From Luteitalea sp. (GTDB lineage: Bacteria; Acidobacteriota; Vicinamibacteria; Vicinamibacterales; Vicinamibacteraceae): a DNA stretch of 64,000 bases. Of the stretch, positions 1,414 to 53,078 are shown in pieces (the stretch's first letter is position 1; each line of letters starts with the position of its first letter). The stretch spans positions 1 to 64,000 of the forward strand of contig WHTT01000009.1 of assembly GCA_009377605.1 (NCBI GenBank), read 5' to 3'. The translations under genes and the position numbers were made by a program. Below the pieces are notes generated by a model, which saw only the letters and a program-made list of their open reading frames with translations, was not told the DNA's origin and ran no database searches.

Positions 1414-4400
1414 ATGAGACGGACACATTTTTCCTGGCCTTCCGGCCGCGTCCCGACCCAGCTGCGCATCGCGGGACTCGCGCTGGTGCTTTTTGCCGGG
1501 CTGTCCACGGTTTTGAGCGCGCTGCCGATAGGCGGCTTTGCGTTCTATGCGGCGTATACCAACCTGAACATCGGCGGAACGCCCGTCGGGAACGTGCAAC
1601 ACCTCCGGCAGAATCTGCCTGCAGGGGGTTGCATCCTTGGTCCCATAACGCCGTGTAGCACCTTCCCAACGAGTTGGCACCCCAGTACCGCCAACGCCAA
1701 CATGCCCACGCTGCTGAATAGTGGGGAACACATCGTGTCCCTCGCGTCAGGGGACCCGGATGGGAACGTCATCCTGATGCGAGTGCAGGGCCCCGATCGG
1801 TTTGTGCTCTTCCCGTACCCAATCTCGAGCCCCGGCGCAGGCACGACGGGATTCTTCCGTGTTGGGAGCTTCACGCTGGAGGGTGTCCTGGGTCCGGCGG
1901 GGTTCAGGACGACCGCGACGTTTCCGGCGGCCGGGTCCGACTGGTTCCCGACCGTGCTCGACCCCACCCTCTTCGCGCAAGCGCCACCCAATGTCCGGCT
2001 CGAGATCGAGGGTCTTGGCACGGTCTTTCTTCATGAGACCGAGAGAGAGCAGAGCGGCAATCAAACCATCGTTCGCGCCAACGGTGTTCGCTTCGACTTC
2101 GATCTCACGACCGTTCCAGACGCGGGTGTCCCCACGCCGATCATCGGTGAGTTTGTCCTGGGTCATGTCGAGATGTCTGCCGAGCGTCCGATTGTCGGTG
2201 ACATCTCGGCCGGCTCGGGCGGACCAGGCACGCCCATCACCATCACGGGAAGCGGATTCAGACCTGGCGAGACCAGCGTTGATATCGGCGGCGTCCCCGC
2301 AACGGATGTCGAGGTCGAGAGCCCGACGGAGCTGACCGCCACTGTGCCTGAGTTGCTTGGCGGCACCTGGCCGGTCAACGTGACGACCCCGGTCGACCGG
2401 TTCTCCCTCCCGGATGCTTTTACGTCTGTCAATCCAACCCCAGGCCTGCCGGTTGCCGGCGAGGCGTTCGCCGTCATGAGTCGGATCAATCCCGTCTCCA
2501 CGCCGGCGAATCCCTTGCCATTTGTCGGCCCAGTCGTCTACGGTCCATGGCCGGCTGCCGAGCTCCCAGAGGGTGGCGGAAGCGAATCCGAATCGCTCGG
2601 CCTCATGCCCGCGATTCCGGGCGCCAACCGCATACCGGGTCGGTTGCTGGATGCAGAGGGCCTCGAGGCGACCACAGAAGGCGGCCCGGCGAGCCCTTCC
2701 CTCGAGAGCGTTGCCTCCAGCGGCCCATTCAACATCGGTAATGGCCTCCTGGAAGCGGAGGGGGCCCTCGTCCGCTGCGCGCGGGAACCGAGCGGGCCCG
2801 TCTGCATCACGAGCTTCGTGAACCTGACGAGCAGCGAGCTCGGGGACCTGCCGGCGACACCCGAGCCGAATACCTCGCTCGAGATTCCTGGCCTGGGCGA
2901 AGTCGTCCTCAATTTCTACTCGGATGTCGTCGAGGACGGCATGCGTTTGGCAACCGCGACAGGCATCCGCGTCAACCTGAATATTCCAGGTGTGGCGACC
3001 GGGGACCTCTTCTTCCTGCGCGCGGCCATTGCGATCCAGTCCACGGACGTCTCCGGGCCGCTGGTACCGAACACTGGTCCCGAAACCGGCGGCACCATCG
3101 TCACGATTCCAGGGACCGGGTTCATTGACCCGATCGAGGTGACCTTCGGTGGAGTGCCGGTCCTCGACGTGACGGTCGACAGCGCGACCCAGGTCACAGC
3201 CATCACGCCACCGCATGCACCGGGCGCTGTCGATGTCGTCGTGACCAGCCCCGGCGGGAGCGAGACGCTGTCCGACGCCTTCACCTACACGCCGGCACCA
3301 GCGCCCACAGCCAGCAGTATCGTGCCAACGACCGGCCCGGTCGCCGGCGGCATCCTGGCCACGATTACCGGCACGAACTTCTTCCCCGGTACCACGGTGA
3401 CCTTTGGCACCACACCATCACCGATGGTCACGGTCCTCAAGCCGGAGCCCGGTTCAGATGAAATGACACTGCAGGCGCGCGTCCCGGCCGCAAGCGCTCC
3501 GGGGCCCGTGAGCGTCGTTGTCACGACCCCGCGAGGCTCCTCGTCGCCGCTTGGCCTCACGTTCACCTACACGAGCACGCCCGTGACACCACCCAGCATC
3601 ACAGGTGTCTCGCCGCCCTCAGGTGACGCCGGCACGGAGGTCACGGTCAGCGGCGCCGGCTTCGACCCCGGCGCGACCGTAACGATCTGCAGCCAGGTCG
3701 TCACACCGGATTCCGTGTCCGGCACCCAGGTCGTCTTTGCGGCACCGACCTGCTCCACGGGCGGACCGCAGGACGTCACCGTGACCAACCCGAATGGTGG
3801 CACCGACACACTGCCTGCGAGCTTCGCGTACCCGGGCTCGGGCGTCAGTCTGCCCGCAATCAGCAGCGTCAGCCCCTCCACTGGCCCCGTGGCAGGCGGC
3901 ACGCTCGTGACGATCTCCGGCGCGAACTTCCTCGCTGGGACGACGACGGTACACTTTGGTGGAACGCCCTCACCAGCCGTCAATGTGCTCAACCCGACGA
4001 CCCTTCAGGTACAACTGCCGGCCGCAGCTGGCGCACAAGAAGGCGCGGTCGACGTCGTCGTGGCGACGCCGATAGGCTCGGTCACGCTGGCCGGCGGATT
4101 CACCTACACCGCCGAACCTGGACCGACACCACCGCCGTCGATCACCGATATCTCGCCGTCTCAGGGTAACGCCGGGACCGTGGTCACGATTACCGGCACG
4201 GGCTTCCAGCCCGACGCGACCGTCACGATCTGCGCGCAGACCGTGACGCCCACAGGAGTCGGCGAGACCGCGATCACCTTCACGGCGCCGTTCTGCCTGC
4301 TGGCTGGGGCGCAGAACGTCACCGTCACCAACCTGGACGGGACAAGCGACACCGTGCCTGCGGCGTTCACATACGGGGTCGCCGGTCCGCCGACCATTGA

Positions 4401-8630: not shown

Positions 8631-11600
8631 TGTTTCGGTACTTCGAAGCCTCCTCGGCTGCAGATCGTCTGGACGCGGCCCGTGGGTTCCTCACCACTTT
8701 GGCCCCTGCGAGTGAAGTTCTCCTTCTTGGTGCGCAGCGCGACGCCCTCGACGACCTCTGTCGCACTCTGACCCGCGACGCGGGCGCGACGTTTGGCCTG
8801 CACCGCTTCACTCTTCTGCAATACGCGTCCCGGGCCGCCTCATCTCGACTCGCGTCGCGTGGCTTGGCGCCAGGAACCCCACTAGGTACCGAGGCGATTG
8901 CAGCGCGAGCCATCTTCGAAGCGGCGCGCGCGGGTAGGTTGCGCTACTTCACGCCGATGGTTGGTTGCCCCGGCTTTCCGCGCGCCCTCGCCGCGACACT
9001 CGCGGAGTTGCGGCAAGCGCACGCGCGGGCGGAGTCACTTGAACATCTCGGAGCCGCTGGCCGCGACCTCGCGGTCCTGCTCCGTGAGCACCTGCGCCTG
9101 CTCGACGATGTACGTGTGGCGGATCGCGCCATGTTGCTCGCCGAAGCGGAACAGGCGGTGCGCGCCCTCGCGCCGGAGAGTCTCGCGGGGCTGCCCGTGC
9201 TGCTCGTCGACGTGCTGCTCGGCACGCGCGCGGAGCAAGACGTCGTACGCGCCCTCGTCGAGGCGGCGCCATCGGCGCTTGCGACGATACCAGCGGGTGA
9301 CCGAGCAGCCCGGTCGTTCGTGAGCGGCCTGGGTACCGCGCTCGAGGGCCACACCACTAGCGCCGTAGCGCAGGCCTTCAGGCCTGCCAACACATCGCCG
9401 GCACCGTTGGGTCTGTCACGCGTGCGCGATCGGCTCTTCTCAGAGGAGCCATCATCTGCGCCCGCCGAGGTGGGAGACGATGTGCAGTTCTTCTCGGCCC
9501 CTGGTGAGGGACGCGAGGCGATCGAAGTGGCGCGGCGCATTGTGGCGGAGGCGAAACGCGGTGTCCCGCTCGACGAGATTGCCGTCGTGGTGCGGCTGCC
9601 TGGGACCTACTGGGGCTTGCTGGAGCACGCATTCCATCGGGCGGGAATCCGCGCGTGGTTCGCGCGAGGCACGCGCCGGCCGGACCCAACCGGACGAGCG
9701 TTTCTCGCGCTGCTCGCTTGCGCCGCGGAGGGCCTCTCAGCGCGGCGCTTTGCAGAGTACCTGTCGCTAGGACAAGTGCCGGTGCTCGATCCGGAAGGCA
9801 CGCCGCCCGAGCTGCCTGCACCTTGGGTACCGCCGGTTGAAGAGACACTCACCGTTGGCCAGCTCTCGCTGTTCGATTTGATCGACGCGGGGCCAAAAGG
9901 CCCCGCGTCGGACGCCGCTTCCGAAGGCGCGGATCACGAACCCACCGAATGGGCTGGCACCCTGCGAGCGCCACGGCATTGGGAGGCGCTCATCGTCGAA
10001 TCGTCTGTGATCGGTGGCGCCGATCGTTGGGAGCGTCGTCTCGCGGGCCTCGCCGCAGAGCTCGACATCCGTTTGACCGAGGAGATGGCAAACGAGGGTG
10101 ATTCGGCACGGGCAGCGGCTCTTCGTCGAGACCGGGAGCAGCTGGATGCCCTGCAGCGATTCGCTCTGCCCATCGTCCGTGCGCTCGCGCGGTTGCCACC
10201 GGAGGCGCGCTGGGGTGACTGGCTCGAGCGCCTTGTCGCGCTCGCGCCCCGCGTCCTGCGGCATCCCCTGCGAGTGCTCGAGGTGTTAGCAGAGCTGAGA
10301 CCGATGGCGGCGGTTGGACCGGTCTCCCTCGATGAGGTCCGTGGCGTGCTCTTGCCACATCTGACCGCCATCGACCGGGAGCCTCCCAAGCACCGCTATG
10401 GCCGCGTGTTCGTCTGCACGCCAGGACAGCTGCGCGGCCGATGCTTCCGCGTTGTGTTCGTGATGGGCCTCGCCGAGAGGATTTTCCCGCAGAAGCCGCG
10501 AGAGGATCCATTGTTGCTCGACGTTTTCAGACGTGACCTGGATCAGGGACTGGAGACGCAAGAAGACCGCATCCACGGAGAGCGGCTGCTCCTGCAATTG
10601 GCCGTTGGCGCAGCACGGGAGCGGCTCTATGTCTCGTACCCGCGACTCGACTTGGCGCAGTCGCGACCACGTGTGCCATCGTTCTATGCGCTCGACTTGG
10701 TTCGTGCGCTGACGGGACAGGTGCCGGACTACGAACAGCTCGAGCGCGACATTGCCACCACCTCCGCCGCGTGGCTGGTGTGGCCGGCGCCCGAAGATTC
10801 CGCGCAGGCAATAGACGACGCGGAGCATGACCTGGCGGTGCTGCGCCCTCTGCTCAAGCCAGGTGGGGCTCGCGAGGAGCTGCGCGGCCGAGCGCACTAC
10901 CTGCTCACGCTGAATCCCTGGCTTGCAGAATCGCTGCGCATGCGATGGGCGCGCTGGAAGCGCGGCTGGTCGCGCTACGACGGCTTGGTCTCTCCAGCTG
11001 ATGTGCTGACGCTGCTCGGGTCGGAGCGCCTTGGCGCGCGGCCGTACTCGGTGTCCGCGCTGCAGCGCTACTCCGCCTGTCCGTATCAGTTTCTGTTGGG
11101 TGCCATCCACCGATTCGAGCCGTTCGCGGTGCCACAGCCCTTGGAGCGTCTCGATCCGCTGACGCGGGGCGCGCTCTTCCACGAAGTGCAGCGCGACGTC
11201 CTACGCCGCTTGAAGGCGCGTGGGCTGATTCCGCTGGCGGAGGAGCGAGCAGACGCCGCCCGCGAGCTCCTCGACGAGACCCTCGACGAGGTCGCCGATC
11301 GCTACCGCGATCGATTGGCACCCGCGATTGCCCGCGTGTGGCAAGACGAAGTGGAGCACCTCCGGCTCGACCTCCGCACGTGGCTCGCGATGCTCATGAC
11401 GTCCGCCGGCACATGGGAGCCAGCGTACTTCGAGCTGAGCTTCGGGCTGCCGCTCGATCGTGAGCACGATTCGGCCAGCGTGCGAGAGCCGGTGCTCGTC
11501 GATCGGCGGTTCATGATGCGTGGCGCCGTCGATCTCATCGAGCAGCGAGTCGGCAGCCCCGGGCTGCGGGTGACCGATCACAAGACAGGGAAGAGCCCTG

Positions 11601-11968
11601 CGTCGAGCTGGCTCATCGTCGGTGGCGGTGCGACGTTGCAGCCGGTCGTCTACGGAATGGTCATCGAGCAGGTGCTGCAGCAACGCGTCCTCGAGTCGCG
11701 CCTCTTCTTTGCCACGGCGCAAGGGGGCTTTTCGACGCACGCCTTGACGCTGACCGACGAAGTGCGGCGGGCGGGCGTGGAGGTGCTCGAGATCATCGAC
11801 CGCGCGGTGGAGCGAGGCACGTTCCCCGCCGCGCCGCGCGAGAAGGCGTGCCGCTGGTGCGATTTTCGGCCCGTCTGCGGCCCGTCCGAGGAGCAGCGCT
11901 TCCTGCGGAAGGATCGATCGGACGCGTCCGCGGTCGGCGATCTGCTGGCGCTGCGGCGGATGCGGTGA
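8630..11968 (+). CDS. addB: AddB-like PD-(D/E)XK nuclease subunit of a helicase-nuclease
   Basis: A 1112-residue protein, close to the usual AddB length, that would pair with AddA (next gene) to resect double-strand breaks for recombination. The N-terminus keeps the helicase-like layout but lacks a clean Walker A motif. The C-terminus has the nuclease core GAVDLIE (Asp968) followed by TDHKTGK (Asp983, Lys985). Four cysteines arranged as in AddB iron-sulfur nucleases are present: Cys817 in SACPYQF and Cys1074, Cys1077 and Cys1083 in the CRWCDFRPVC stretch. Two GC-rich palindromes (9370-9387 and 9883-9910) are embedded in frame in the less conserved first third. No ribosome binding site is seen; the start lies just after TACAGT, so translation may be leaderless. 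Confidence 0.88.
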   Translation: MFRYFEASSAADRLDAARGFLTTLAPASEVLLLGAQRDALDDLCRTLTRDAGATFGLHRFTLLQYASRAASSRLASRGLAPGTPLGTEAIAARAIFEAARAGRLRYFTPMVGCPGFPRALAATLAELRQAHARAESLEHLGAAGRDLAVLLREHLRLLDDVRVADRAMLLAEAEQAVRALAPESLAGLPVLLVDVLLGTRAEQDVVRALVEAAPSALATIPAGDRAARSFVSGLGTALEGHTTSAVAQAFRPANTSPAPLGLSRVRDRLFSEEPSSAPAEVGDDVQFFSAPGEGREAIEVARRIVAEAKRGVPLDEIAVVVRLPGTYWGLLEHAFHRAGIRAWFARGTRRPDPTGRAFLALLACAAEGLSARRFAEYLSLGQVPVLDPEGTPPELPAPWVPPVEETLTVGQLSLFDLIDAGPKGPASDAASEGADHEPTEWAGTLRAPRHWEALIVESSVIGGADRWERRLAGLAAELDIRLTEEMANEGDSARAAALRRDREQLDALQRFALPIVRALARLPPEARWGDWLERLVALAPRVLRHPLRVLEVLAELRPMAAVGPVSLDEVRGVLLPHLTAIDREPPKHRYGRVFVCTPGQLRGRCFRVVFVMGLAERIFPQKPREDPLLLDVFRRDLDQGLETQEDRIHGERLLLQLAVGAARERLYVSYPRLDLAQSRPRVPSFYALDLVRALTGQVPDYEQLERDIATTSAAWLVWPAPEDSAQAIDDAEHDLAVLRPLLKPGGAREELRGRAHYLLTLNPWLAESLRMRWARWKRGWSRYDGLVSPADVLTLLGSERLGARPYSVSALQRYSACPYQFLLGAIHRFEPFAVPQPLERLDPLTRGALFHEVQRDVLRRLKARGLIPLAEERADAARELLDETLDEVADRYRDRLAPAIARVWQDEVEHLRLDLRTWLAMLMTSAGTWEPAYFELSFGLPLDREHDSASVREPVLVDRRFMMRGAVDLIEQRVGSPGLRVTDHKTGKSPASSWLIVGGGATLQPVVYGMVIEQVLQQRVLESRLFFATAQGGFSTHALTLTDEVRRAGVEVLEIIDRAVERGTFPAAPREKACRWCDFRPVCGPSEEQRFLRKDRSDASAVGDLLALRRMR
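9370..9387. repeat. palindromic repeat inside addB (GGCC-TTCA-GGCC type)
   Basis: GCAGGCC-TTCA-GGCCTGC, preceded by GTAGC, lies in frame in addB and encodes an AQAFRPA peptide. The sequence at 44187-44208 shares CGTAGCGC and the CCTTCAGG centre, so both belong to one dispersed family. Confidence 0.75.
9883..9910. repeat. 12-bp-arm palindrome inside addB
   Basis: The arms CGACGCGGGGCC and GGCCCCGCGTCG are perfect complements around an AAAA loop. It lies in frame and encodes a GPKGP-type insertion between conserved parts of AddB. Confidence 0.75.
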
Positions 11969-12037
11969 CAGGTGATAGGGTGGCACGGTGACAAGGTGAC
12001 GGCGTGAAGGGTGGTTTGGTGGCCCTTGTCACCCGTC
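11965..12037. repeat. 8-bp phrase repeat between addB and addA
   Basis: Successive GTGANNRG-like octamers run from the addB stop codon to about 12016, with a short complementary CCCTTGTCACCC arm at 12023-12034. It fills almost the whole gap between addB and addA and belongs to the same family as 19824-19920. Confidence 0.65.
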
Positions 12038-12047
12038 TTCGAGAGAC

Positions 12048-15000
12048 ATGCATCAATCACCCCCGCTCGTCGATGCGGAAGATCGCGAGCGCATTCGCAC
12101 ATCGCTCGACGAGACGATGGCCGTCGAGGCCGCTGCGGGCACGGGTAAGACCACGGTTCTCGTGGACCGCATCGTCAACGTCATCGCCTCCGGCCGCGCG
12201 GACGTTGACGGCATCGTCGCTGTGACCTTCACTGAAAAGGCCGCCGGCGAGCTGAAGCTGCGGCTGCGCGCCGGCCTGGAGCAGGCGCGGCAGCGACAGG
12301 AGGGCGCGACGCGGACGCTGGACAAGGCGCTTGCGCGCCTGGAGCAGGCGCACGTCAGCACCATCCACGGCTTCTGCGCGGACCTTCTGCGGGAGCGGCC
12401 AGTCGAGGCAGGTGTGGATCCGCAGTTTCGCACCCTGACGGAAGACGAAGCGGAAGGGCTGTTTCGCGAGGCCTTTCGGCTCTGGTTGCCGCGGACCCTC
12501 GAGAATCCACCGGAGGGTGTGCGCCGAGCCCTGCGGCGGCGTAGCTTCGACGAGGAGGGCCCGATCACGCGCCTCGAGCGCGCCGGCTGGACCCTGACTC
12601 AGTGGCGGGACTTTCCCGCGCCGTGGCGCCGCGATCCATTCGACCGCGAGACCACCATCGACCGGCTGGTGGCCTCGTTGGACGCGTTCGTGGCGCTCAC
12701 GCGCGAGCCCGCCGATCCCGCCGACTCGTTCTTCTCGAGCATCCAGGCAGCGCATCGCCTGGCCCGTGACGTCTCGCTCGCCGAGCGGGTGCATCCGCGA
12801 GATTACGATGGTCTGGAGGGTCGTCTGGTCAGCCTGGCGCGGAGCAGCGACTTTCGCCGTCCACGCACCGGTCGCCGTACGGTGCCCTATCGGCAAGGAC
12901 TACCGCGTGCGGAGGTGCTCTCGGCGCACGAGGCGTTGCTGAGCGGGCTCGATGCCTTCGCTCAGACCGCAGACGCTCACCTTGCTGCGCTGCTCCAAAC
13001 GGAGCTGCACGAGCCTCTCGATCACTACCGGGCGGCGAAGATGCGGCTGGGCGCTCTCGATTTCCTCGATCTTCTGCTGTACGCGCGTGACCTCGTCCGC
13101 GACCATGCGGAGGTCCGGCGCGATTTCCAGCGGCGGTTCACCCACATCTTCGTGGACGAGTTCCAGGATACCGATCCGCTCCAGGCAGAGCTCCTTCTCT
13201 TGATCGCGGCAAACGATCCCGACCTGCGCGATTGGCGTGCAGCGGTGCCGGAAGCCGGCAAGCTGTTCATCGTCGGCGATCCCAAACAGTCGATCTATCG
13301 CTTCAGGCGCGCTGATGTTGGCGTCTATCAGGACGTGCGCGAGCAGCTGCGGCGGGCGGGCGCCGCATGCCCAGTGCTCACCACGAACTTCCGATCGGTG
13401 CCACGGCTGCAGCGCTTCGTCAACGCTGCGTTCCAGCCCTGCATACGCGCCGACGACGTGTCGTTGCAGGCGGCCTACGTGCCGTTGTCATCCTCGCGTG
13501 TAGACGAGGGCTCGCAGCCGGCTGTCGTCGCGCTGCCGGTGCCGGATCCGTATGGAGGCCGCGATGGTCGAACCGTGACCGAGCGCGCCATCGAGACGTC
13601 TCTTCCCCAAGCGGTTGGCGCGTTCCTCGCTTGGCTGGTCAACGATAGCGGGTGGACGATCACCGAGCGAGAGGCGCCGGACCAGCTCGCGCCGGTCGCG
13701 GCGCGGCATGTGTGCCTGCTGTTTCGACGCTTCGACGTCCGGCGATTCGACGGCCGTCTCGACGACATCACGCGGCCCTACGTGGAGGCGCTCGAGTCGC
13801 GAGGGATTCCGCATTTGCTCGTTGGGGGTAAGTCCTTTCACGATCGCGAGGAAATCGAAGCCGTGCGCACGGCGCTGACGGCGCTCGAGTGGCCCGACGA
13901 TGAGCTCTCGATCTACGGAACACTTCGCGGGATGCTGTTTGGTGTCCGGGACGAGCTCCTCTTCGAATATCGGCGAATCGTCCGGCGTCTTCACCCATTC
14001 AAGCGTCCGACCAATCCGGTGCCGGAGCAGCTGTCGCCCATCGTTGCGGCCCTCGATCTTCTCGGCGAGCTGTACACGCGTCGAAACTCGCGACCGGTTG
14101 CGGAGACCATTGCAAGGTTGCTCGATGCCACCCGAGCGCATGTTGCGCTGGCGCTACGTCCCGCGGGCGAGCAGGCGCTTGCCAACGTGCACCATATCGT
14201 GGAGCTTGCCCGCCAGTACGAGGCGGCTGGCGGCTTCTCCTTCCGTGGCTTCGTCGACGCATTGCGCGAAGAGGCGGAGCGGTCGCGTGTTGCCGAAGCG
14301 CCAGTTCTCGAAGCGGGCAGCGACGGTGTCCGCTTGATGACCACGCATCGCGCCAAGGGGTTGGAGTTCCCGGTTGTCGTGTTGGTCGATCCAGGATGCA
14401 AGCTCTCGCGCGGCTTCGCGAGCCGCTGGATCGACCGCCACTCGGTCCGTGCAGCTGTCAGTCTCACGGGCTGGGCACCGGTCGAGCTGCGCGAGCACGA
14501 GCAAGAGGAGGCGCTGCGTGACGAGGCGGAGGCTGTACGCGTGGCTTACGTGGCGGCTACGCGCGCGCGCGATCTCTTGGTGGTGCCCACCGTGGGTGAT
14601 GGCCCCCGGCACGGCGGGTGGTTGTCACCACTCAACCAAGCGATCTATCCGGATGAGGACCGCCGGCGGGATCCCCTGCCCGCGCCCCGATGCCCGACAT
14701 TTGGGAATGACAGCGTCCGTACCCGAGACGTTGGTGCCACCCCCATCTGGAACGTTCGACCGGGCGGTCACCGCTTCGGCGGGTCCGAGTCATCTCCGGA
14801 AGGCTATTCCGTGGTGTGGTGGGACCCGTGCGTGCTGGAGCTCGAACGACCGCCTGCACCAGCTCTGCGGCGCGAAGAGCTCATTGCACGCAACGCGCCA
14901 GAGCCCATCGTGAAGCGGGCGCTCACCGAGTATGAAGCGTGGCGCTCGTCGAAGCAGCAGGTGTTGGAGCACTCCAGCACGCCGTCGACACGCGTCTTGA

Positions 15001-44989: not shown

Positions 44990-45289
44990 ATGGCCGAAGC
45001 CCGGAGAATGGGGAAGTCTGAGCTGTTTTCGCATTTCGCGGAAAAGTACGACATGAAGCGCACCGAGGTGCGTGAGCTCTTCGACGAGGTCACCACGCTC
45101 GCGGAGAAGGAGCTCAAGCGCTCCGGCGAGTTCACCATCCCGGGCGTCGTCAAGCTGGTGGTCCAGAAGCGGAAGGCGCGGATGGGTCGTAACCCCGCGA
45201 CCGGTGAGCCGATCAAGATTCCCGCCAAGACCGTGGTGAAGGCGCGGCCGGTCAAGCAGATCAAAGACGCGGTCCTGCCGCGAAAGTAG
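44990..45289 (+). CDS. HU-family nucleoid DNA-binding protein
   Basis: A 99-residue histone-like protein. The HU/IHF fold pattern is present: two N-terminal helices (KSELFSHFAEKYDMKRTEVRELFDEV), FTIPGVVKLVVQKRKAR, and the DNA-binding arm MGRNPATGEPIKIPAKTVVKARPVK with the conserved RNPATGE. It ends in a Lys-rich tail. It should bend and compact DNA. AGGGGG lies 5 bases before the ATG. It is monocistronic, converging with the histidine kinase gene. Confidence 0.95.
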   Translation: MAEARRMGKSELFSHFAEKYDMKRTEVRELFDEVTTLAEKELKRSGEFTIPGVVKLVVQKRKARMGRNPATGEPIKIPAKTVVKARPVKQIKDAVLPRK

Positions 45290-45383: not shown

Positions 45384-47141
45384 CTAGGAGGCGACCGGTC
45401 GCTGCAAGTGCTCCTGCTGCCGCGCGAGCGCCGGGAACCGGAGCACGAACGTTGTCCCTTTGCCCACTTCGCTCGCGACAGCGATCGTCCCATCGAGCTG
45501 CTCCACAATCTTGCGTGAGATGGCGAGGCCGAGGCCAAGGCCGCGGCGCTTCGTGGTGACGAAGTCGTCGAAGATCGCGGCCAGGCGATCGGGCGGGATG
45601 CCGCATCCGGTGTCTGCCAGGGAGATCTCTACCTGCGAATCGACGGCGCGCGAGGTGAACGTGACCCGCCCGCCCGGCGCCGTCGCTTGAAGCGCATTCG
45701 TGATGAGATTGCGCAGGACGCGGCTGAACGCGAAGAGATCGCCTTCGATGTGCACCTCGTCGTCGGCGAGATCGAGCTCGATGTCCACACCCGCAGCCTG
45801 TTGGGGCGCGCGCATGCGCTCGACGACGTCGAGAATCGAACGATTGACATCGAGGGGGAAGCGCTCGAGCGGAATCGGCCTGGCGATGTTGCGCAGGTCT
45901 TCGACGATGCGCTGAATCGTGCCGAACTCGCGGCTGACGGTGCGGTCGAACAACCCGCGATAATCGGTGTCGGTGTGGAGCTTCAGAATCAGCTTGCAGT
46001 TGTTCTTGATGTTGTGCAGCGGGTGAGACAGGTCGTGGGCGAGACCGGCCGCGATCCGGCCGAACATCGCCTGACGCTCTTGCCGAATGGTCTTCCGCTG
46101 CAGCTCGAGCAGCCGGTCCGCCATGCTGTTGAAGGCGTCGCCGAGCGTTCGAAACTCGTCACGCCGGGCGATGTGGACATGCGTGTCGAACCGCCCTCGG
46201 GAGAGCGCTTCGGTGCCGCGCAGGAGCGCAAAGATCGGCCGAATGAACGACCTGCCCCAGGCTCCTCCTACGACCACGGTGGTGAGGAGAGCCAGGGCGA
46301 CCACCGTAAGCAGCAAGCTGCGAAGGCGGCGGGCGGCCGCGAACGCTTCGGCCGTCGGCTGATCCACGAGAACGATCCACTCGAGCTGCGGGACCGACGC
46401 CGCCACAGAGAGAAGCTCACGCCCGGCGGCGTCTCGGTACTCGACGGTTGTCGGCCCACCGCCATTGGGGAGGGTCGCCGCAACCAGCGGATGATCGCGC
46501 AAATACTCACCGCGCGCGATGCGCGCCTTCTCGTCCGGATTCCCGTGCGCGATTAGCTTGGCGGCGCGATCGACGAGCAGGGCAAATCCTTGATCGCCGA
46601 TGCGGATTCGGTCGACGAGGCGCCACAGTTCTTCGAGCGTGAGGTCGGCGACCAGCATACCAGCACGATCGCCTTGGCCTCGGAGAGGCAGCGTCATTGT
46701 GCTGCGAGGCAGGAGATCATCGTCGACTTCGATCGGAGAGACCAGCACGCCACCCAAGCTGGTGACCTCGGACGTCTGTGGCTGGAGAGCAGTCTCACCA
46801 AGCCGGCTCGTCGCCAGCACACGCCCGTTCACGTCGAAGAGCGTAATCTCGCGCACTTCCGGGAACGCCAGGACATAGTTTCGGAGAATGCGCTCCCGCT
46901 GCCAATGATCGAGACGCGTGTGCTGCAGGTCGGCCGCGACGGCCTGGAGCATCTTCATGTTCTGTGAGAGATAGGAACCGATCTCCTCGGCCGCGCGCCT
47001 TGCGGTTTCCTGGTTGGCCAAGACCGCCGACTCTCGCGTCCGTGTGTCGAGCGACCAGATCGCGACGATGCCGAAGAGCAGCAGCGGCGCAACGGCAGCC
47101 GTGGCCACCAACATCACGAAGCGCTGAGTGAGCGTCGTCAT
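45384..47141 (-). CDS. CACHE-domain sensor histidine kinase of the peptide cluster
   Basis: A 585-residue membrane kinase. TM1 (about 10-30) and TM2 (about 274-292) flank a periplasmic double-CACHE-like sensor, followed by HAMP (297-348), a dimerisation helix with phospho-acceptor His369 (AHDLSHPLHNIKN) and a HATPase domain (NLITNALQA, DTGCGIPPD, GLGLGLAISRKIVEQL). Its ATG overlaps the stop of the oligopeptide-binding gene (ATGA), so the two are translationally coupled. It has no receiver domain; the natural partner is the NtrC-type regulator at the other end of the cluster. It probably senses a small ligand, perhaps delivered by the binding protein. Confidence 0.88.
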   Translation of the reverse strand: MTTLTQRFVMLVATAAVAPLLLFGIVAIWSLDTRTRESAVLANQETARRAAEEIGSYLSQNMKMLQAVAADLQHTRLDHWQRERILRNYVLAFPEVREITLFDVNGRVLATSRLGETALQPQTSEVTSLGGVLVSPIEVDDDLLPRSTMTLPLRGQGDRAGMLVADLTLEELWRLVDRIRIGDQGFALLVDRAAKLIAHGNPDEKARIARGEYLRDHPLVAATLPNGGGPTTVEYRDAAGRELLSVAASVPQLEWIVLVDQPTAEAFAAARRLRSLLLTVVALALLTTVVVGGAWGRSFIRPIFALLRGTEALSRGRFDTHVHIARRDEFRTLGDAFNSMADRLLELQRKTIRQERQAMFGRIAAGLAHDLSHPLHNIKNNCKLILKLHTDTDYRGLFDRTVSREFGTIQRIVEDLRNIARPIPLERFPLDVNRSILDVVERMRAPQQAAGVDIELDLADDEVHIEGDLFAFSRVLRNLITNALQATAPGGRVTFTSRAVDSQVEISLADTGCGIPPDRLAAIFDDFVTTKRRGLGLGLAISRKIVEQLDGTIAVASEVGKGTTFVLRFPALARQQEHLQRPVAS

Positions 47142-48802
47142 GGCGAGCTGGCCGTGCTCAGGCGGCCCCGTCGTGCACCGGGCTGCGTATCCGCGATGCT
47201 CGCCTCAGCAATCATGCTGAGCATGTCCCCTTCGGAGCTTTCCGGAAGGGTGAACCGCGCGCTCAGGGCACGGGAGGTCTGCTCCCAATACAGGAACAGT
47301 CCGGGTGGATCGTCACGCAAGACGCGCTGGAATTCGCGAACCGCCACGGCGGCCTCGGGGGTGGTTCGAGCATGCCGCAGTCGATCGAGGGCCCCATCGG
47401 CGGCCGTATACCCGGACGCGACCCACGGCGCATCGTCGCCAGTTCCTGAATGCCAGAACACATAGGGATAGTTCAAATGCGCCGCCATCTCTACGAGGTA
47501 GGCGTCGAAATCGCCTCGCGCGAGACGGCGACCCAGCTCATTCAGCGGAAGCAGCTCGATCCGCATGTCGACTCCCACTTCGATGAGTTGCCGCTGCAGC
47601 AACAGCGCAAGGCGCTCGACACGGGGGATATGAGCGGCGACGAGACAGGTGAACTCCACGCGTTGTTCATTAGCACTTGCCAGGAGGGCCGCCGTGCGAT
47701 CGGGTTGGTACGGAAACGTCGTGACACCCTTGTCGAAGGCCCAATGCTCGGGCGAAATGTGTCCGCTCGCAGGCACGCCACGGTCCGCCAAGACCTGCTC
47801 GACAATGGTCTTGCGGTCCACGGCGTAATTCAGTGCCAATCGCACATCCTGCCGCCGGAGCACCGGGTGGCGAAGATTGAAGCCAAGGAGCGTGACGTAA
47901 GGGCGCAAGAACGAGCGCACCTGCACCTCGCGGGCATGCTCGAGAAAGCCGAGCGCTTCTGGTGCGACGTCGTAGACGAAATCAATGTCGCCGCGGAGGA
48001 GCGCTGCCCAGGCCGCGCGTGGGCGCGCATACCCACGCAATGTGATGCGGTCGATGGCCGGTCGACGGCCGTAGTACTCCTCGAAGGCGAGCAGCGTCGC
48101 TTCCCTACCTTGTCGCGGCCCAATCATGAAGGGGCCGGCACGGCGCTCGACGCTCGTATCGCTGATGTTGTGCAGGCTGAGCGCCTCCAGGAGGAGCCAC
48201 GAGGGCGCGCGAAGGCGGATCACGAGCTCTGTGTTGCTCGCTGCTTCAATGGACACAATATCCCGTAAGCCGGGATAGAGCGTTTGGCGGGGCCCCTCCA
48301 AGGCCTCGGAAAGGACTCTCGCGAGGGTGTCGGCGGTGAGCAGCGTGCCACTGTGGAACCGAAGGTCTGGCCGCAACCAGAAGTGCCACGTGCGGCCGTC
48401 GCCAGACGTTTGCCAGCGCTCCGCCAGCCCAGGTTCCACCTCACCGGCTCGGGTCGGCGTGACGAGTCGGGCTTCGGACAGAAAACTGAGGACGGCCTCC
48501 AAGCCGACGCGGCCGTCCGCCTTCTCAGCCGGCTGCGGGGCGGCGTAGCCGATTCGCAGTGTCACAGGACCGTCCGACGTCGCAGCACCACGGCTTTGAG
48601 AGCTGCAGGCGCTCGCGAGTGTCACTACGAATGCAGCCGCGGTCAGGGCGCCGAGCACACACCCATTCCCTCGGCGAATCCAGGAGCGCCGATTACACAC
48701 ACTTGTTACCGGTCGGCCGGACAGCCGAACTGCCTCGGGGGCCGACTCGGCCGTTGCGCGCGAGAGTGCCGGTTGCTTCACCAGGGCATCCGTAGTGCTC
48801 AT
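47138..48802 (-). CDS. family 5 oligopeptide-binding lipoprotein (SBP)
   Basis: A 554-residue extracytoplasmic solute-binding protein of the OppA/DppA type. A hydrophobic stretch ending TLASACSSQ (lipobox-like, Cys about 67) follows a long N-terminus. Family pieces include EPGLAERW, WHFWLRPDLRFHSGTLLTADT and RLALNYAVDRKTIVEQV. It should bind peptides in the periplasm. No permease or ATPase gene lies nearby, so it may serve as a receptor rather than a transporter. I start at ATG 48800-48802; a longer frame from 48979 would run through the last precursor gene. It follows the precursor genes and overlaps the kinase gene by 4 bases. Confidence 0.8.
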   Translation of the reverse strand: MSTTDALVKQPALSRATAESAPEAVRLSGRPVTSVCNRRSWIRRGNGCVLGALTAAAFVVTLASACSSQSRGAATSDGPVTLRIGYAAPQPAEKADGRVGLEAVLSFLSEARLVTPTRAGEVEPGLAERWQTSGDGRTWHFWLRPDLRFHSGTLLTADTLARVLSEALEGPRQTLYPGLRDIVSIEAASNTELVIRLRAPSWLLLEALSLHNISDTSVERRAGPFMIGPRQGREATLLAFEEYYGRRPAIDRITLRGYARPRAAWAALLRGDIDFVYDVAPEALGFLEHAREVQVRSFLRPYVTLLGFNLRHPVLRRQDVRLALNYAVDRKTIVEQVLADRGVPASGHISPEHWAFDKGVTTFPYQPDRTAALLASANEQRVEFTCLVAAHIPRVERLALLLQRQLIEVGVDMRIELLPLNELGRRLARGDFDAYLVEMAAHLNYPYVFWHSGTGDDAPWVASGYTAADGALDRLRHARTTPEAAVAVREFQRVLRDDPPGLFLYWEQTSRALSARFTLPESSEGDMLSMIAEASIADTQPGARRGRLSTASSP

Positions 48803-48893: not shown

Positions 48894-49010
48894 CTACGCC
48901 TGCTTTTGAGGCCCCAGGGGCGGCACGTCGGGCACGTCGACGAGCCACGGAGAGATCTTGCCCTGAACGCGACCTTCATCGTTGTCGCGTGCGACGATTC
49001 TGATCTTCAT
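48894..49010 (-). CDS. RiPP precursor peptide A1 (new)
   Basis: A 38-residue peptide beginning MKIRIVARDNDEGRVQ and containing SPWLVDVPDVPP, ending Lys-Gln-Ala. AAGGAGG lies 6 bases before the ATG (49008-49010). It matches peptide A2 over residues 1-31 with only three changes (V6A, D9N, I19V), while eight codons differ only synonymously. The basic, beta-strand-like start (MKIRI) suits binding by the RRE-like domain of the radical SAM protein, and PWLVD is the likely modification site. No protease gene is seen in the cluster. It resembles no precursor family I know. Confidence 0.8.
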   Translation of the reverse strand: MKIRIVARDNDEGRVQGKISPWLVDVPDVPPLGPQKQA

Positions 49011-49073
49011 GACGAACCTCCTTCGTCTGCTGTGAACGACAGCAGGGACGTTCACCCAGCTAGAAGCCTGGGC

Positions 49074-49175
49074 CTACTTCTTCGGCGCCGTCGGCATGAA
49101 ATCGACGTACCAGGGGCAGTTGTTGCTCGACGGAGCGATGTTGCCACTGCGGACGACGGTAATTTTTGCCTTCAT
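49074..49175 (-). CDS. RiPP precursor peptide B1 (new)
   Basis: A 33-residue peptide with MKAKITVVRSGNIAPS at its start and NNCPWYVDFMP near the end, finishing PKK. AAGGGAGA lies before the ATG (49173-49175). It shares the MKxKI start and PW(L/Y)VD core with the A peptides but has a cysteine where they have serine. Codons 7-28 encode exactly the same residues as in B2 despite 10 synonymous differences, showing selection on the peptide. Cys20, Trp22 and Tyr23 are candidate modification sites for a radical SAM/SPASM enzyme. Confidence 0.8.
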   Translation of the reverse strand: MKAKITVVRSGNIAPSSNNCPWYVDFMPTAPKK

Positions 49176-49282
49176 CTAAATCTCCCTTGCGCGTTATTCG
49201 CGATTCTCGAGAGCGTGGCGCGCGCGTCCCTCAAGAAAGCTCTCTCAGGCGCACCGCGCGTCGCACGCACAATTTCTACGTG

Positions 49283-49393
49283 CTACTTGTGAGGTCCTGT
49301 TGGTGGCACATCAGGGACGTCGACGAGCCACGGAGAGACCTTGCCCTGAACGCGACCTTCGTCGTTATTGCGAGCGGCGATTCTGATCTTCAC
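49283..49393 (-). CDS. RiPP precursor peptide A2 (new)
   Basis: A 36-residue peptide, paralogue of A1, starting with GTG (49391-49393) after the same AAGGAGG at the same spacing. It carries NDEGRVQGK and SPWLVDVPDVPP and ends GPHK. It lies 56 bases after the B2 stop. Together with B2 it forms the first of two B-A units in the operon, which arose by duplication of roughly 375 bases. Confidence 0.8.
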   Translation of the reverse strand: MKIRIAARNNDEGRVQGKVSPWLVDVPDVPPTGPHK

Positions 49394-49449
49394 GAGAACC
49401 TCCTTCACCTGTGGGCCCCACGATGGCACCCACGAGTTGGCACTGTTGC

Positions 49450-49551
49450 TTACTTTTTAGAGGAGCTAGGCATGAAATCGACGTACCAAGGACAGTTATT
49501 GCTTGATGGAGCGATATTGCCGCTGCGAACCACGTGAATCTTGACCTTCAT
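49450..49551 (-). CDS. RiPP precursor peptide B2 (new)
   Basis: A 33-residue peptide, first of the four precursors after the maturase gene. It begins MKVKIHVVRSGNIAPS, carries NNCPWYVDFMP and ends SSSKK. Two ATGs stand in tandem (49552-49554 and 49549-49551); the second gives the same length and ribosome-binding spacing as the others. Its AAGGAG overlaps the stop codon of the radical SAM gene, so translation is probably coupled. Differences from B1 lie at residues 3, 6 and 29-31 only. Confidence 0.8.
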   Translation of the reverse strand: MKVKIHVVRSGNIAPSSNNCPWYVDFMPSSSKK

Positions 49552-49563
49552 CATCAATCTCCT

Positions 49564-50997
49564 TCACACACCACTCGCGGCTTCCTGCGCGAGCGAGACC
49601 AGCGCCGTTTCCATACTGCTCTTGTGACATGAGGGCGCGTGCATGTCACCCAGCTCCGTGTGCGCCGCGACCGAGCAGCCGCCTCCGCACACAGGAATGA
49701 ACGAGCAATCGCCGCACGCCTTCCACGGGGCGTGTTGCTCGAACCGTGCCGCTGCGGCCGTTTGCGAAGGCCGCTGCTTGTCATCGACATCGCCGACTGA
49801 CAGCGTGGGATCACCCGTGAACCCAGGACAGGCGTATAACTCGCCGTCGGGGCCAATCGTGTACGCGTGCCGTTTGTGCAGCTCGCATGGACCCATGTGC
49901 ACACCGTCGGGCGTGGGGAAACCTCGCTTCTTCGTTTCCTCACGTAAGAATGACAACTGCTCATCCACGAAATGACAGCTATCGCACGGCGAGCTGGTCG
50001 CAGCGCCCACCGACGTCATGCAGGTGCCGCCCAGCGGCTTGCCTTGACCATCGACCACTGCCAGCGGAATCATGTGGCGGCCGTCCGGCTGCCGGACGAC
50101 GGATGCCGTTTGGCTGGTACTCTGGTCGCGAATCACTGGCTTGAAATTGACCTTGACGAGCCCGTCGGCGAAGTCCTGCGCGCGGAGGAAGTCGAGGAGG
50201 GCAGGGTAGCTCTCGACCGTGTCGGCGTCGAAGTTGCCGCCGATGGCGATGGCGCACTTCCCTGAGATCTGACGGAGGTTGTGGATGATCTTGTCGAACG
50301 TGCCTTGCCCGCCACGCAACGGCCGCATCCGATTGTGCGTCTCACGGTCACCGTCGAGCGTGACCTTCACGCCGTTGAAGCCGTACGGCAGGAGACGATC
50401 GACGACCTCCGGCGTGAGCAGCAATCCGTTCGTAATCATATTGATCACGAGTGTGACGCCGCGCGCTTGTGAGACCTCCCAAACCCGCTCGGCGAGGTGA
50501 TACAAGACCGGCAGATTGATCAACGGCTCGCCACCAAAGAACGTCAGCACGAGCCGTTTCGGTTGCAAGGCGTCGATCTTCTTCTCGCACCAGGCCACCA
50601 CACGGTCAGCGGTCTGCAGAGACATCTTCGTCGCCTTGGCGTTGTAATCGCCATGGTCGCCCTGGATGCAATAGTCACACGCGAAGTTACACTGCAGCGT
50701 CGTGAGCACCGTGACTCGCAGCTCGCTCGTGTCCTCTCGGACGTCCCGAAAGAAGCGCTCGAGCTGCAGGCGCTCCTGCTCCCGGCTGGGCGCCACGAAG
50801 CCATGCGCCTGTAACGTCTCCACAGCCTCGCGCTCCTCGGTCTCGAGATCGGCCGGCCCCCTGCTTCCATCCAGCCGATCCAACAACGTCGCGACATCTT
50901 CCGAGACGATCAGCTGCGCGTCGGTGAGCGTGTTCATGAGAAACACTTCTCCCCGGTCCGGCAGCGGGACGCGAACATTGAAAAGCGACGCTTGCAT
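49564..50997 (-). CDS. radical SAM/SPASM peptide maturase
   Basis: A 477-residue enzyme. Residues 1-90 form a small domain (NVRVPLPDRGEVFLMNTLT ... LQAHGFV) of the kind that precedes peptide-modifying radical SAM cores and probably binds the leader. The radical SAM cluster is Cys103, Cys107, Cys110 (CNFACDYC), followed by FFGGEPL and ITNGLLL. The C-terminal SPASM domain has the cysteine set including MGPCELHK, YACPGF and CGDCSFIPVCGGGCS for two auxiliary clusters. Such enzymes install C-C, C-O or thioether cross-links in ribosomal peptides. The four small peptides directly downstream are its likely substrates. The stop overlaps the ribosome binding site of peptide B2. Confidence 0.9.
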   Translation of the reverse strand: MQASLFNVRVPLPDRGEVFLMNTLTDAQLIVSEDVATLLDRLDGSRGPADLETEEREAVETLQAHGFVAPSREQERLQLERFFRDVREDTSELRVTVLTTLQCNFACDYCIQGDHGDYNAKATKMSLQTADRVVAWCEKKIDALQPKRLVLTFFGGEPLINLPVLYHLAERVWEVSQARGVTLVINMITNGLLLTPEVVDRLLPYGFNGVKVTLDGDRETHNRMRPLRGGQGTFDKIIHNLRQISGKCAIAIGGNFDADTVESYPALLDFLRAQDFADGLVKVNFKPVIRDQSTSQTASVVRQPDGRHMIPLAVVDGQGKPLGGTCMTSVGAATSSPCDSCHFVDEQLSFLREETKKRGFPTPDGVHMGPCELHKRHAYTIGPDGELYACPGFTGDPTLSVGDVDDKQRPSQTAAAARFEQHAPWKACGDCSFIPVCGGGCSVAAHTELGDMHAPSCHKSSMETALVSLAQEAASGV

Positions 50998-51686
50998 AGC
51001 AAACTCCTCCCCTAGGGTGTAGATTCAGAACCGCGGAGCGTGGAGTGCTCGACACGAGCACGTGGGCGACACCCACGCTCTGACGCGCGTGCGCATCGGG
51101 TAGCTGGCCGGCCGCTCGACTCACCGGCGTGAGCCGAGCTAGTCACTCGATAGGACGAGAAAAGGTCGAGCGCTAGGAGACGAGCTCGACAGCAAAATCC
51201 AAGTGCCTGCTCGGGTCGCTTCGCGTCTAGCCCGAACGAGCATCGGCTAACATCTCGCACGAAAACCATGAGCAGCTTCGAGGCCGCTCGATGAGATCTG
51301 CTGACCGTTGCAAGCGCCGCTCCAACTCGTTGACGAGCGGGATCGTCACAAGCATCAGCCGCTACAACATACCTGAAGGGCGACGCTTCATGCCAGCCAG
51401 CAAGCAAGAAAAACGCTCGTATTTTCGGGGTGAAGAGGAGGTTTAATACTTAAGTGGTCCATAGTACATACAACTACGTCCCGAGATGATCAGGCGAAAA
51501 CCCATACCTCGTCTGTATTAAGAAATGTAGGGGAATGACACTAAGAAAGGGAGGAGAAGAACATAGTACACGACGACGGCGCCTCTTGAGAATCCTGAAA
51601 TCTGACAGTTGGTCGACGGCCGGGAGGTTGGGTCGCGGGGCTGTGGCTGTCGACCCTAGAGCCTGCGCGGTGCAGTCTCGGGCCTC
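50998..51686. other. long regulatory region upstream of the radical SAM gene
   Basis: No convincing gene is seen in these 689 bases, which are richer in A/T than the surroundings, especially 51410-51560. They contain the sigma-54-like site at 51309-51325 (minus strand), a CGTGGG-CGACA-CCCACG stem at 51061-51077, two copies of CATAGTACA (about 51469 and 51562) and the AGGAG ribosome binding site just before the radical SAM start. The leader from the sigma-54-like site would be about 300 bases. Confidence 0.5.
51309..51325 (-). promoter_or_regulatory. sigma-54 (-24/-12) promoter candidate for the peptide operon
   Basis: On the minus strand the site reads TTGGAGCGGCGCTTGCA. GG and GC are separated by the required 10 bases, and 15 of 17 positions fit the YTGGCACGrNNNTTGCW pattern. 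It points toward the radical SAM gene and lies just downstream of the gene for a sigma-54 activator. Confidence 0.45.
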
Positions 51687-53078
51687 TCATGACTCGCGAA
51701 GTCGCCGCGCCAGTCGATACACGTCCAGGCGACCGAGCTTGAACTTCAGCGTGCTGAGTGGAATGCCGAGATACCGCGCCGTAGCCGTGATGTTCCACTC
51801 GCACCGCTCGAGCGACTTGAGCAGGAAGCTGCGCTCGAAGGTGCTGAGTGCGTCATCGAGGAGACTGTCGCTGCGACCAGGACGTGTGCCGAGCTGCGAG
51901 AGATGGAGCTCGATGGGGACATCGCCCTCGGTGAGCACCAGAGCGTCGCTCGTCGCCACGAGCCGTTCGATGAGATTCTGCAGCTCTCGAATGTTGCCCG
52001 GCCAGTAGTAGCCCTTGAGGATCTCGAGCGCGCCGGGCGACAGGCCTGTGATCGGCTTGCGGAAGCGCGCCGCATATCGGCGCAGGAACACTTCGGCGAG
52101 CACCGGCACATCCTCGGCGCGCTCGCGCAGCGGCGGCAATCGAACCGGCACGACGTTGATGCGATAGTAGAGATCTTCACGGAAGCGACCTTCCCTGACG
52201 GCTCGCTCGAGGTCGATATTGGTGGCCACCACCAGCCGGAACTGCGTCTTGATCGGCTTGGTTCCGCCAACCCGCTCGATCTCTCCTTCCTGTAACGCGC
52301 GGAGCAGCTTGGCCTGCAGTTCCACGCGGAGGTCGCCAATCTCGTCGAGGAAGAGCGTACCGCCCGCCGCCATCTCGAACTTGCCCATCTGCTGGCGAAC
52401 GGCACCGGTGAAGGCGCCGCGCTCATGGCCGAAGAGCGTGCTCTCGACCAGCTCGGTTGGGATGGCGGCGAGATTGACCGGAATGAACGGACCGTCGCGC
52501 TGGGCCGAGTCGCGATGAACCCTGCGCGCCAGCAATTCCTTGCCGGTACCACTCTCTCCCGTCACCAAGACCGTGGCGGAGAGACCGGCAACCTTGGCCG
52601 CCAGCTCAAGGACCGCTCGGCTGTTCGGGCTCGGACCGATGATGAACTCACGCTCGTCCTGCTGCTCGGCCACTTGCGCCGTCAGCGTGAGGACACGGCG
52701 GTTGAGGTCCTGCCGCTCACTCGCGTGGCGCATCAACGACCGCAGCGCATCGTACTCGAACTCCTTCGTGATGTAGTGGTAGGCGCCCAACTTCATCGCC
52801 TGCACGGCGGTCTCGACCTCGCTGATGGCCGAGATCACGATGGCCTCGACCATCGAGTACTGCTCGCGGACGATACGGAGCAGATCCAGACCGCTCATCC
52901 CGGGCAGTCGGACGTCGAGCAGCATGAGATGCACGTTGACCGCCCGGAGGACCTCGAGGCCTGCTTCGGCAGACGCCGCCGTCCGCACCGTGTAGTCGCG
53001 CTTGAGGATCGCCGTCAGCGTATCGCGCATCCCCTCATCGTCATCGACGATCAGGAGAACTTTGGGCTCGATTGGCAT
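51687..53078 (-). CDS. NtrC-family sigma-54-dependent response regulator
   Basis: A 463-residue regulator. The receiver domain has acidic pocket VDDDE and phospho-acceptor Asp55 (LLDVRLPG). The AAA+ domain has Walker A GESGTGKE, the sigma-54 contact loop GAFTGA, Walker B FLDEIGDL and RFREDLYYRINVVPVRLPPLRER. A C-terminal Fis-type helix-turn-helix (ITATARYLGIPLSTLKFKLGRL) follows. It should activate sigma-54 RNA polymerase when phosphorylated. It is the first gene of the minus-strand block and the probable partner of the kinase at 45384-47141; the radical SAM operon is the obvious target. Confidence 0.93.
   Translation of the reverse strand: MPIEPKVLLIVDDDEGMRDTLTAILKRDYTVRTAASAEAGLEVLRAVNVHLMLLDVRLPGMSGLDLLRIVREQYSMVEAIVISAISEVETAVQAMKLGAYHYITKEFEYDALRSLMRHASERQDLNRRVLTLTAQVAEQQDEREFIIGPSPNSRAVLELAAKVAGLSATVLVTGESGTGKELLARRVHRDSAQRDGPFIPVNLAAIPTELVESTLFGHERGAFTGAVRQQMGKFEMAAGGTLFLDEIGDLRVELQAKLLRALQEGEIERVGGTKPIKTQFRLVVATNIDLERAVREGRFREDLYYRINVVPVRLPPLRERAEDVPVLAEVFLRRYAARFRKPITGLSPGALEILKGYYWPGNIRELQNLIERLVATSDALVLTEGDVPIELHLSQLGTRPGRSDSLLDDALSTFERSFLLKSLERCEWNITATARYLGIPLSTLKFKLGRLDVYRLARRLRES

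Follow-up and report, generated by a model that had tools for sequence, protein, structure and literature searches.

A four-gene block found in soil and water Acidobacteriota of a single order specifies a very small, enzyme-modified peptide together with an outward-facing binding protein and a sensor kinase, encoded in one operon with it, that could detect it; the block has the look of a bacterial peptide-signalling circuit not studied before. The phylum is abundant in soil, and little is known of its signalling. In the stretch of Luteitalea sp. DNA analyzed here (64,000 nucleotides of contig WHTT01000009.1, hereafter the window), the genes run, toward lower coordinates, as an NtrC-type regulator, a 689-bp gap, a maturase, four peptide genes, a solute-binding protein (SBP) gene and a kinase gene. 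Our best reading, to which we assign a probability of roughly 0.5, is that the locus makes a thioether-type (ranthipeptide-like) RiPP that is sensed by its own SBP–kinase–regulator circuit. The features of the window on which the argument draws are as follows.

51687..53078, minus strand: NtrC/AtoC-type response regulator with receiver, sigma-54 interaction and HTH_8 domains (PF00072, PF00158, PF02954)
51309..51324, minus strand: weak candidate sigma-54 -24/-12 element, TGGAGCGGCGCTTGCA, the best match in the gap, located 327 bp before the maturase start
49564..50997, minus strand: radical SAM/SPASM peptide maturase (PF04055, TIGR04085; alignments; predicted model and fold match to CteB)
49551-49450 including stop, minus strand: Cys2, Cys-type precursor 2, MKVKIHVVRSGNIAPSSNNCPWYVDFMPSSSKK; second in-frame ATG at 49554
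49393-49283 including stop, minus strand: PWLVD2, PWLVD-type precursor 2, GTG start, MKIRIAARNNDEGRVQGKVSPWLVDVPDVPPTGPHK
49175-49074 including stop, minus strand: Cys1, Cys-type precursor 1, MKAKITVVRSGNIAPSSNNCPWYVDFMPTAPKK
49010-48894 including stop, minus strand: PWLVD1, PWLVD-type precursor 1, MKIRIVARDNDEGRVQGKISPWLVDVPDVPPLGPQKQA
47138..48802, minus strand: family-5 solute-binding lipoprotein (SBP_bac_5, PF00496), lipobox LASAC; no ABC permease gene alongside
45384..47141, minus strand: sensor histidine kinase (dCache, HAMP, HisKA, HATPase; Pfam), its start overlapping the SBP stop
44990..45289, plus strand: HU-family DNA-binding protein, a conserved gene, identified by eye, that bounds the far side of the cassette

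Peptide genes and their maturase

An initial annotation of the window had proposed four unannotated precursor peptides in two B-A pairs, and the four genes are present on the minus strand adjoining the maturase, in the order Cys2-PWLVD2-Cys1-PWLVD1; here the B precursors are called the Cys type (CPWYVD) and the A precursors the Cys-less PWLVD type. The AAGGAG or AAGGGAG Shine-Dalgarno motifs that had been noted are found at the precursor ORFs. Recounting the codons reproduced the figures given for the Cys pair, in which codons 7-28 contain 10 synonymous codons and no amino-acid difference; for codons 10-31 of the PWLVD pair the single residue difference (I19V) stood, with six synonymous codons rather than the seven reported. 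The nucleotide differences between the complete Cys-type genes are concentrated at third positions (3/3/16 by codon position), and the number of amino-acid changes is far below that expected if substitutions were placed at random, both in the Cys pair (5 versus 14.6; 0 of 20,000 simulations gave a value as low) and in the PWLVD pair (5 versus 10.8; P about 0.0004), bearing out the earlier claim of purifying selection. The ratio pN/pS is likewise low between duplicated Cys-type copies inside other genomes (0.08, 0.13 and 0.17 at loci L037, L075 and L009, respectively).

Chance ORFs are excluded mainly by comparative evidence, which we regard as decisive: of the 49 loci for which sufficient sequence is available, 47 have a Cys-type peptide downstream of the maturase, giving the pairing of a short precursor gene with a peptide-modifying enzyme by which RiPP loci are recognized. 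The Cys-type gene lies within about 110 bp of the maturase or comes after a PWLVD-type gene. In one of the two exceptions (L038) the core is replaced, and in the other (L056) the precursor contains two in-frame stops (3327-3500); it is intact in the close relative L055, and the L056 copy is either a pseudogene or an assembly error. Two of the genomes carry MTIRIVKRGVSKDKPPFCPFLIDYPCDQPEPK and MTIRVVQRGSLKDKPYCPFLIDVPIEEVPEK. None of the family models that we searched covers the precursors, which match no curated family. The peptides, of about 30 residues, are thus products of real, conserved genes that go with the maturase.

Aligned across relatives, Cys-type peptides begin with an MKI(T/K)V(I/V)KK-like segment and place 16-20 residues before a Cys (position 0), which is the sole invariant residue. 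The profile contains Cys(0) in 55/55 peptides and Asp/Glu(+5), nearly invariant, in 53/55, with no indel between the two; the search behind these figures itself demanded C-x4-[DEAT], which makes the Cys count partly one by construction. This is a Cys-Xn-acceptor core motif of the kind that helps to define ranthipeptides. Pro is usual at +1, Val or Ile occupies +4 in 44/55 and Trp occupies +2 in 34/55, and about 12 residues, frequently ending in Lys, lie beyond +5.

The maturase has a CxxxCxxC motif and, by alignment, the complete set of SPASM cysteines, and its N-terminus (residues 7-88) is predicted to form a bbb-aaa, RRE-like domain (pLDDT mostly about 90). Among solved structures the thioether enzyme CteB is closest to it, in sequence as well as in fold; the second closest fold, TigE (8vpo), would suggest other chemistry. 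All 39 maturases compared match the TIGR04280, TIGR04463, CefB, PapB and SCIFF models. Of the curated models, the geopeptide model TIGR04280 scores best for the window maturase, with 264 bits where the cut-off is 400, and the SCIFF (TIGR03974; 102 of 425 bits) and PapB (NF047865; 133 of 340 bits) models also fall short; since the protein lies below every curated equivalog cut-off, we dropped membership in the geopeptide, SCIFF and PapB families. Taken together, these findings make it very probable that the precursors and the maturase form a biosynthetic unit.

The conserved block: putative receptor, kinase and regulator

The order is represented by 106 well-sequenced genomes, and 47 of them contain a relative of the maturase; in a 297-genome sample of the phylum all 14 matches fell within the same order. 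The homologues are 55-82% identical, and all are labelled Acidobacteriota save three loci from Acidimicrobiia-labelled bins (L034, L035 and L054); the cassette contigs of those bins have lpd neighbours as in Acidobacteriota, and the bins are probably mislabelled or mixed. The block regulator–maturase–peptide–SBP–kinase has the same order in every locus that is long enough, and beyond the kinase of the window lie the convergent HU gene and then QueF. The initial annotation had not linked the downstream SBP and histidine kinase, or the upstream sigma-54 activator, to the peptides.

The kinase, too, is found in 47 of the 106 genomes, a set that matches that of the maturase apart from two genomes each way (45 with both, 2 and 2 with one alone, 57 with neither; Fisher P 6e-25). 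Where the maturase occurs without the kinase, it is present as a fragment only (G045) or sits on a contig of 3.9 kb, which leaves no room for the kinase (G033). Of the kinases without a maturase, one lies at a contig end (G049), and in the other genome (G047, locus L136) the maturase, peptide and SBP are all lost, the regulator is kept and the kinase (2256-3946, minus strand) is frameshifted. The regulator, which adjoins the cassette in relatives, is retained in 71 of the 106 genomes, including genomes without the cassette; in cassette-less genomes the order is lpd-regulator-HU-QueF, with regulator and HU almost touching at the empty site. Because regulators that lack the cassette are nested at several points within the regulator tree, the four-gene block of maturase, peptides, SBP and kinase has probably been lost repeatedly as a unit.

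SBP-activated kinases are often encoded beside their SBP genes (PMC11113362), and the arrangement here, in which an SBP gene adjoins the gene for a kinase with an extracytoplasmic sensor domain, is that of such two-component systems; it differs from them in that its own operon probably encodes the ligand, and in having no transporter gene by the SBP. The lipoprotein signal of the SBP is found in many relatives. The closest solved relatives of the protein are AppA, a nonapeptide binder and the top sequence match, and NikZ; the fold is common to oligopeptide, nickel and opine binders, which structure comparison cannot separate. Among the four larger proteins the SBP evolves fastest. In partial Mantel tests that control for maturase, regulator and kinase, which do not fully remove shared ancestry, SBP distances follow those of the peptide core (r 0.30-0.33, P 0.0005); they also track those of the kinase sensor region (r 0.51). 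The maturase shows an equally strong correlation with the core (r 0.33). The coevolution of SBP and core, together with their joint loss, supports a self-sensing loop, and on these sequence comparisons we put it at about even odds that the product is sensed by the SBP and kinase of its own operon.

Features of sigma-54/NtrC-type control, namely a -24/-12 promoter with upstream activator sites, are present in most relatives and are unconvincing in the window. In most relatives an element of the form GG[A/C]AC-N5-TTGC is located 30-150 bp before the maturase start; about 100-200 bp further upstream, the palindrome CGGCCAA-N4-TTGGCCG or a close variant of it is present in one to three copies. Palindromes in the regulator–maturase gaps score far above shuffled sequences, exact palindromes occur at 46 places in the 106 genomes, 9 of them in a regulator–maturase gap (P about 1e-31), and the regulator is over-represented among palindrome-bearing genomes (Fisher P 0.002). 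In the genus of the window, promoter and palindrome are weak or absent: a search of the window itself gave only the weak site TGGAGCGGCGCTTGCA, whose -24 half is not kept in the nearest relative, L021. The gap of the window (50998-51686) is twice the usual length and has no palindrome, and its last 130 bp or so, highly conserved with L021, may constitute a different promoter or a leader. Separately, in one group of relatives (L027-L029, L031, L040, L046-L048, L050 and L063) a strong terminator-like hairpin lies between the peptide gene and the SBP gene, an arrangement under which transcripts of the peptide would outnumber those of the receptor.

The exact palindrome occurs at no fewer than 14 further places, between or beside a subtilase gene and another, family-5 SBP gene (L121, L124, L125, L127, L128, L140, L141 and L143-L149), including in genomes that have the regulator and lack the cassette. 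Several of these subtilases carry C-terminal IIWGD/IVWGN repeats, and an ABC-permease gene was detected alongside in some loci. No -24/-12 element was found beside the subtilase–SBP palindromes. It is possible that these loci belong to the regulon of the same regulator. At two of them (L125, about 3000-3300; L127, about 3300-3500) a small ORF, SVSRRTVYYRIRDGRL, lies between palindrome and subtilase; by eye it resembles an excisionase-type HTH protein and could be another candidate binder of the palindrome.

The same palindrome, by joining protein degradation to peptide uptake, lends some weight to an alternative that we consider possible if rather unlikely, in which the peptide is an effector (an antimicrobial or other released product) and the SBP, kinase and regulator sense an outside nutrient or a foreign peptide and switch production on; family-5 SBPs, moreover, commonly bind nutrient peptides, opines and nickel. 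Against it stand the findings that SBP divergence follows core divergence and that the SBP and kinase are missing, with few exceptions, where the maturase and peptide are missing. A locus that is near-fixed in many families of the order would also be unusual for an antimicrobial, and no conserved immunity or export gene stood out alongside. More broadly, no conserved exporter, protease or permease stood out within 10 kb, in an ORF clustering that was noisy with antisense ORFs.

Candidate chemistry of the peptide core

For the Cys-type peptides, a cross-link from Cys(0) to the +5 residue is somewhat favoured, most likely as a thioether. This proposal draws on sequence and on analogy with related enzymes: the radical SAM/SPASM maturase is related to CteB, PapB and QhpD, as expected of a ranthipeptide enzyme, and PapB joins Cys to Asp with 0-6 residues between them (PMC9413430), which makes Cys-x4-Asp/Glu a credible thioether site. 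Like SCIFF and other ranthipeptides with CteB/ScfB, and freyrasin with PapB, the system combines a radical SAM/SPASM maturase bearing an N-terminal RRE-like domain (predicted here) with a Cys and an Asp/Glu acceptor at short fixed spacing. In contrast to those systems, the peptides here have a single Cys, rather than six, in about 30 residues, with the spacing C-x4-D/E, and an SBP and a kinase are encoded in the operon. The geopeptide system supplies the best-scoring curated model, whose cut-off, as described above, is not reached. In one well-supported maturase clade (L014, L020, L042 and L060), Asp/Glu(+5) is replaced by Ser, Cys, Ala or Thr; L014, found without the profile filter, has Ser(+5). 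The core of this clade, CPWMI[SCAT]V, offers a natural test of the acceptor rule.

The PWLVD type, having no Cys, cannot be accounted for by a thioether. PWLVD is invariant in 11/11 peptides of this type, which are spread over three separate maturase clades and have leaders and tails that differ from clade to clade; the type is an accessory one. This invariance, and the frequent Trp(+2) of the Cys type, are what favour a reading in which the (S/C)PW(L/Y)VD core noted in the initial annotation would carry a Trp-centred carbon-carbon cross-link (cyclophane) and the two precursor types would, as suggested there, form a two-component product. The shared core holds for the PWLVD type, which alone keeps the Trp, but not for the Cys type: amino-acid change across the segment, named in advance as evidence against the proposal, is seen there (CITVVDD, CDFYIDD, CVQMVDD), and no aromatic residue is kept at a fixed position as a three-residue cyclophane would need. 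Two of these cores, CITVVDD and CVQMVDD, contain no aromatic residue at all, and we dropped a Trp-cyclophane as the general core. The scores of cyclophane maturase models are likewise far under their cut-offs. As the ratio of the two types is not fixed among loci, the evidence does not support a two-component product; in most relatives only the Cys type is present, and L021 has a ratio of 4:1. There, four near-identical tandem Cys-type genes with a 162-bp period (11578-12165, 150-737 bp past the maturase) are a recent amplification in the nearest relative of the window. We consider the combined cyclophane and two-component reading unlikely.

Cores rich in Cys, Asp and Glu, and the kinship of the SBP to NikA/NikZ, might instead suggest a metallophore captured by a NikA-like SBP, with the kinase sensing metal supply, but this is quite improbable: a lone Cys is all that is invariant in the peptides, the SBP is most similar in sequence to the oligopeptide binder AppA, and no conserved metal transporter or TonB receptor stood out beside the cassette. 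An AgrD-like thiolactone pheromone, in which the Cys would form a ring with the +4 residue and the acidic tail would be cut off, is nearly refuted, since despite a similar Cys-x4-acidic tail layout and one weak match of a Cys-type peptide to AgrD (E 0.0015; Pfam AgrD E 0.08), AgrB was found in 0/20 genomes of the order and the adjoining modifying enzyme is a radical SAM protein.

A putative peptide-signalling circuit

Combining a Cys-Asp/Glu cross-link with a self-sensing loop, we infer the following circuit for the thioether-type RiPP. The N-terminal MKITVIKK-like strand of the peptide would bind the RRE-like domain of the maturase, which, with SAM and Fe-S clusters, would join Cys(0) to the +5 residue (usually Asp/Glu) in a thioether, in the manner of PapB/QhpD-type enzymes. 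Because the operon has no protease or exporter gene, trimming and export of the core would fall to housekeeping routes. Outside the inner membrane the lipoprotein SBP would bind the core, and the loaded SBP would switch the dCache kinase, which would phosphorylate the response regulator. In most relatives, judging from promoter anatomy, the regulator would then bind CGGCCAA-N4-TTGGCCG and activate the sigma-54 promoter before the maturase, and the resulting positive autoregulation would make this a peptide-signalling, quorum-sensing-like circuit. Counting against this reading are the clade with Ser, Cys, Ala or Thr at +5, the operon's lack of an exporter or protease, the weak promoter and palindrome in the genus of the window, and the ability of family-5 SBPs to bind nickel, opines and nutrient peptides as well.

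Radical-SAM peptides have been tied to signalling before. In clostridia, SCIFF ranthipeptides have a part in quorum sensing (PMC8326336), and these peptides and the streptococcal RaS-RiPP clusters, which are under Rgg/SHP control, are linked to cell-cell signalling (PMC8326336; PMC13361665). Those systems are Gram-positive, whereas the circuit proposed here belongs to Acidobacteriota and uses an SBP anchored in the membrane, a kinase of the dCache type and a sigma-54 activator. Our search of the literature and family libraries, which was limited in scope and is not proof of novelty, found no description of a peptide–maturase–SBP–kinase system.

A more far-reaching reading, which we consider possible but less likely than not, is that a radical-SAM-modified peptide serves as a diderm pheromone and is read by a dedicated lipoprotein SBP, by the dCache kinase and by the sigma-54 activator; the same regulator site would govern a secreted subtilase and oligopeptide-uptake locus as well, and the peptide would thereby tune collective extracellular proteolysis. 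The system gives a minimal substrate of about 30 residues and a maturase family that falls outside every curated model. If the proposed circuit is correct, it would be a widespread peptide-signalling locus in a main order of Acidobacteriota, with maker, product, receptor, kinase and regulator together, and it would join radical-SAM RiPP chemistry with SBP–kinase sensing in one circuit.
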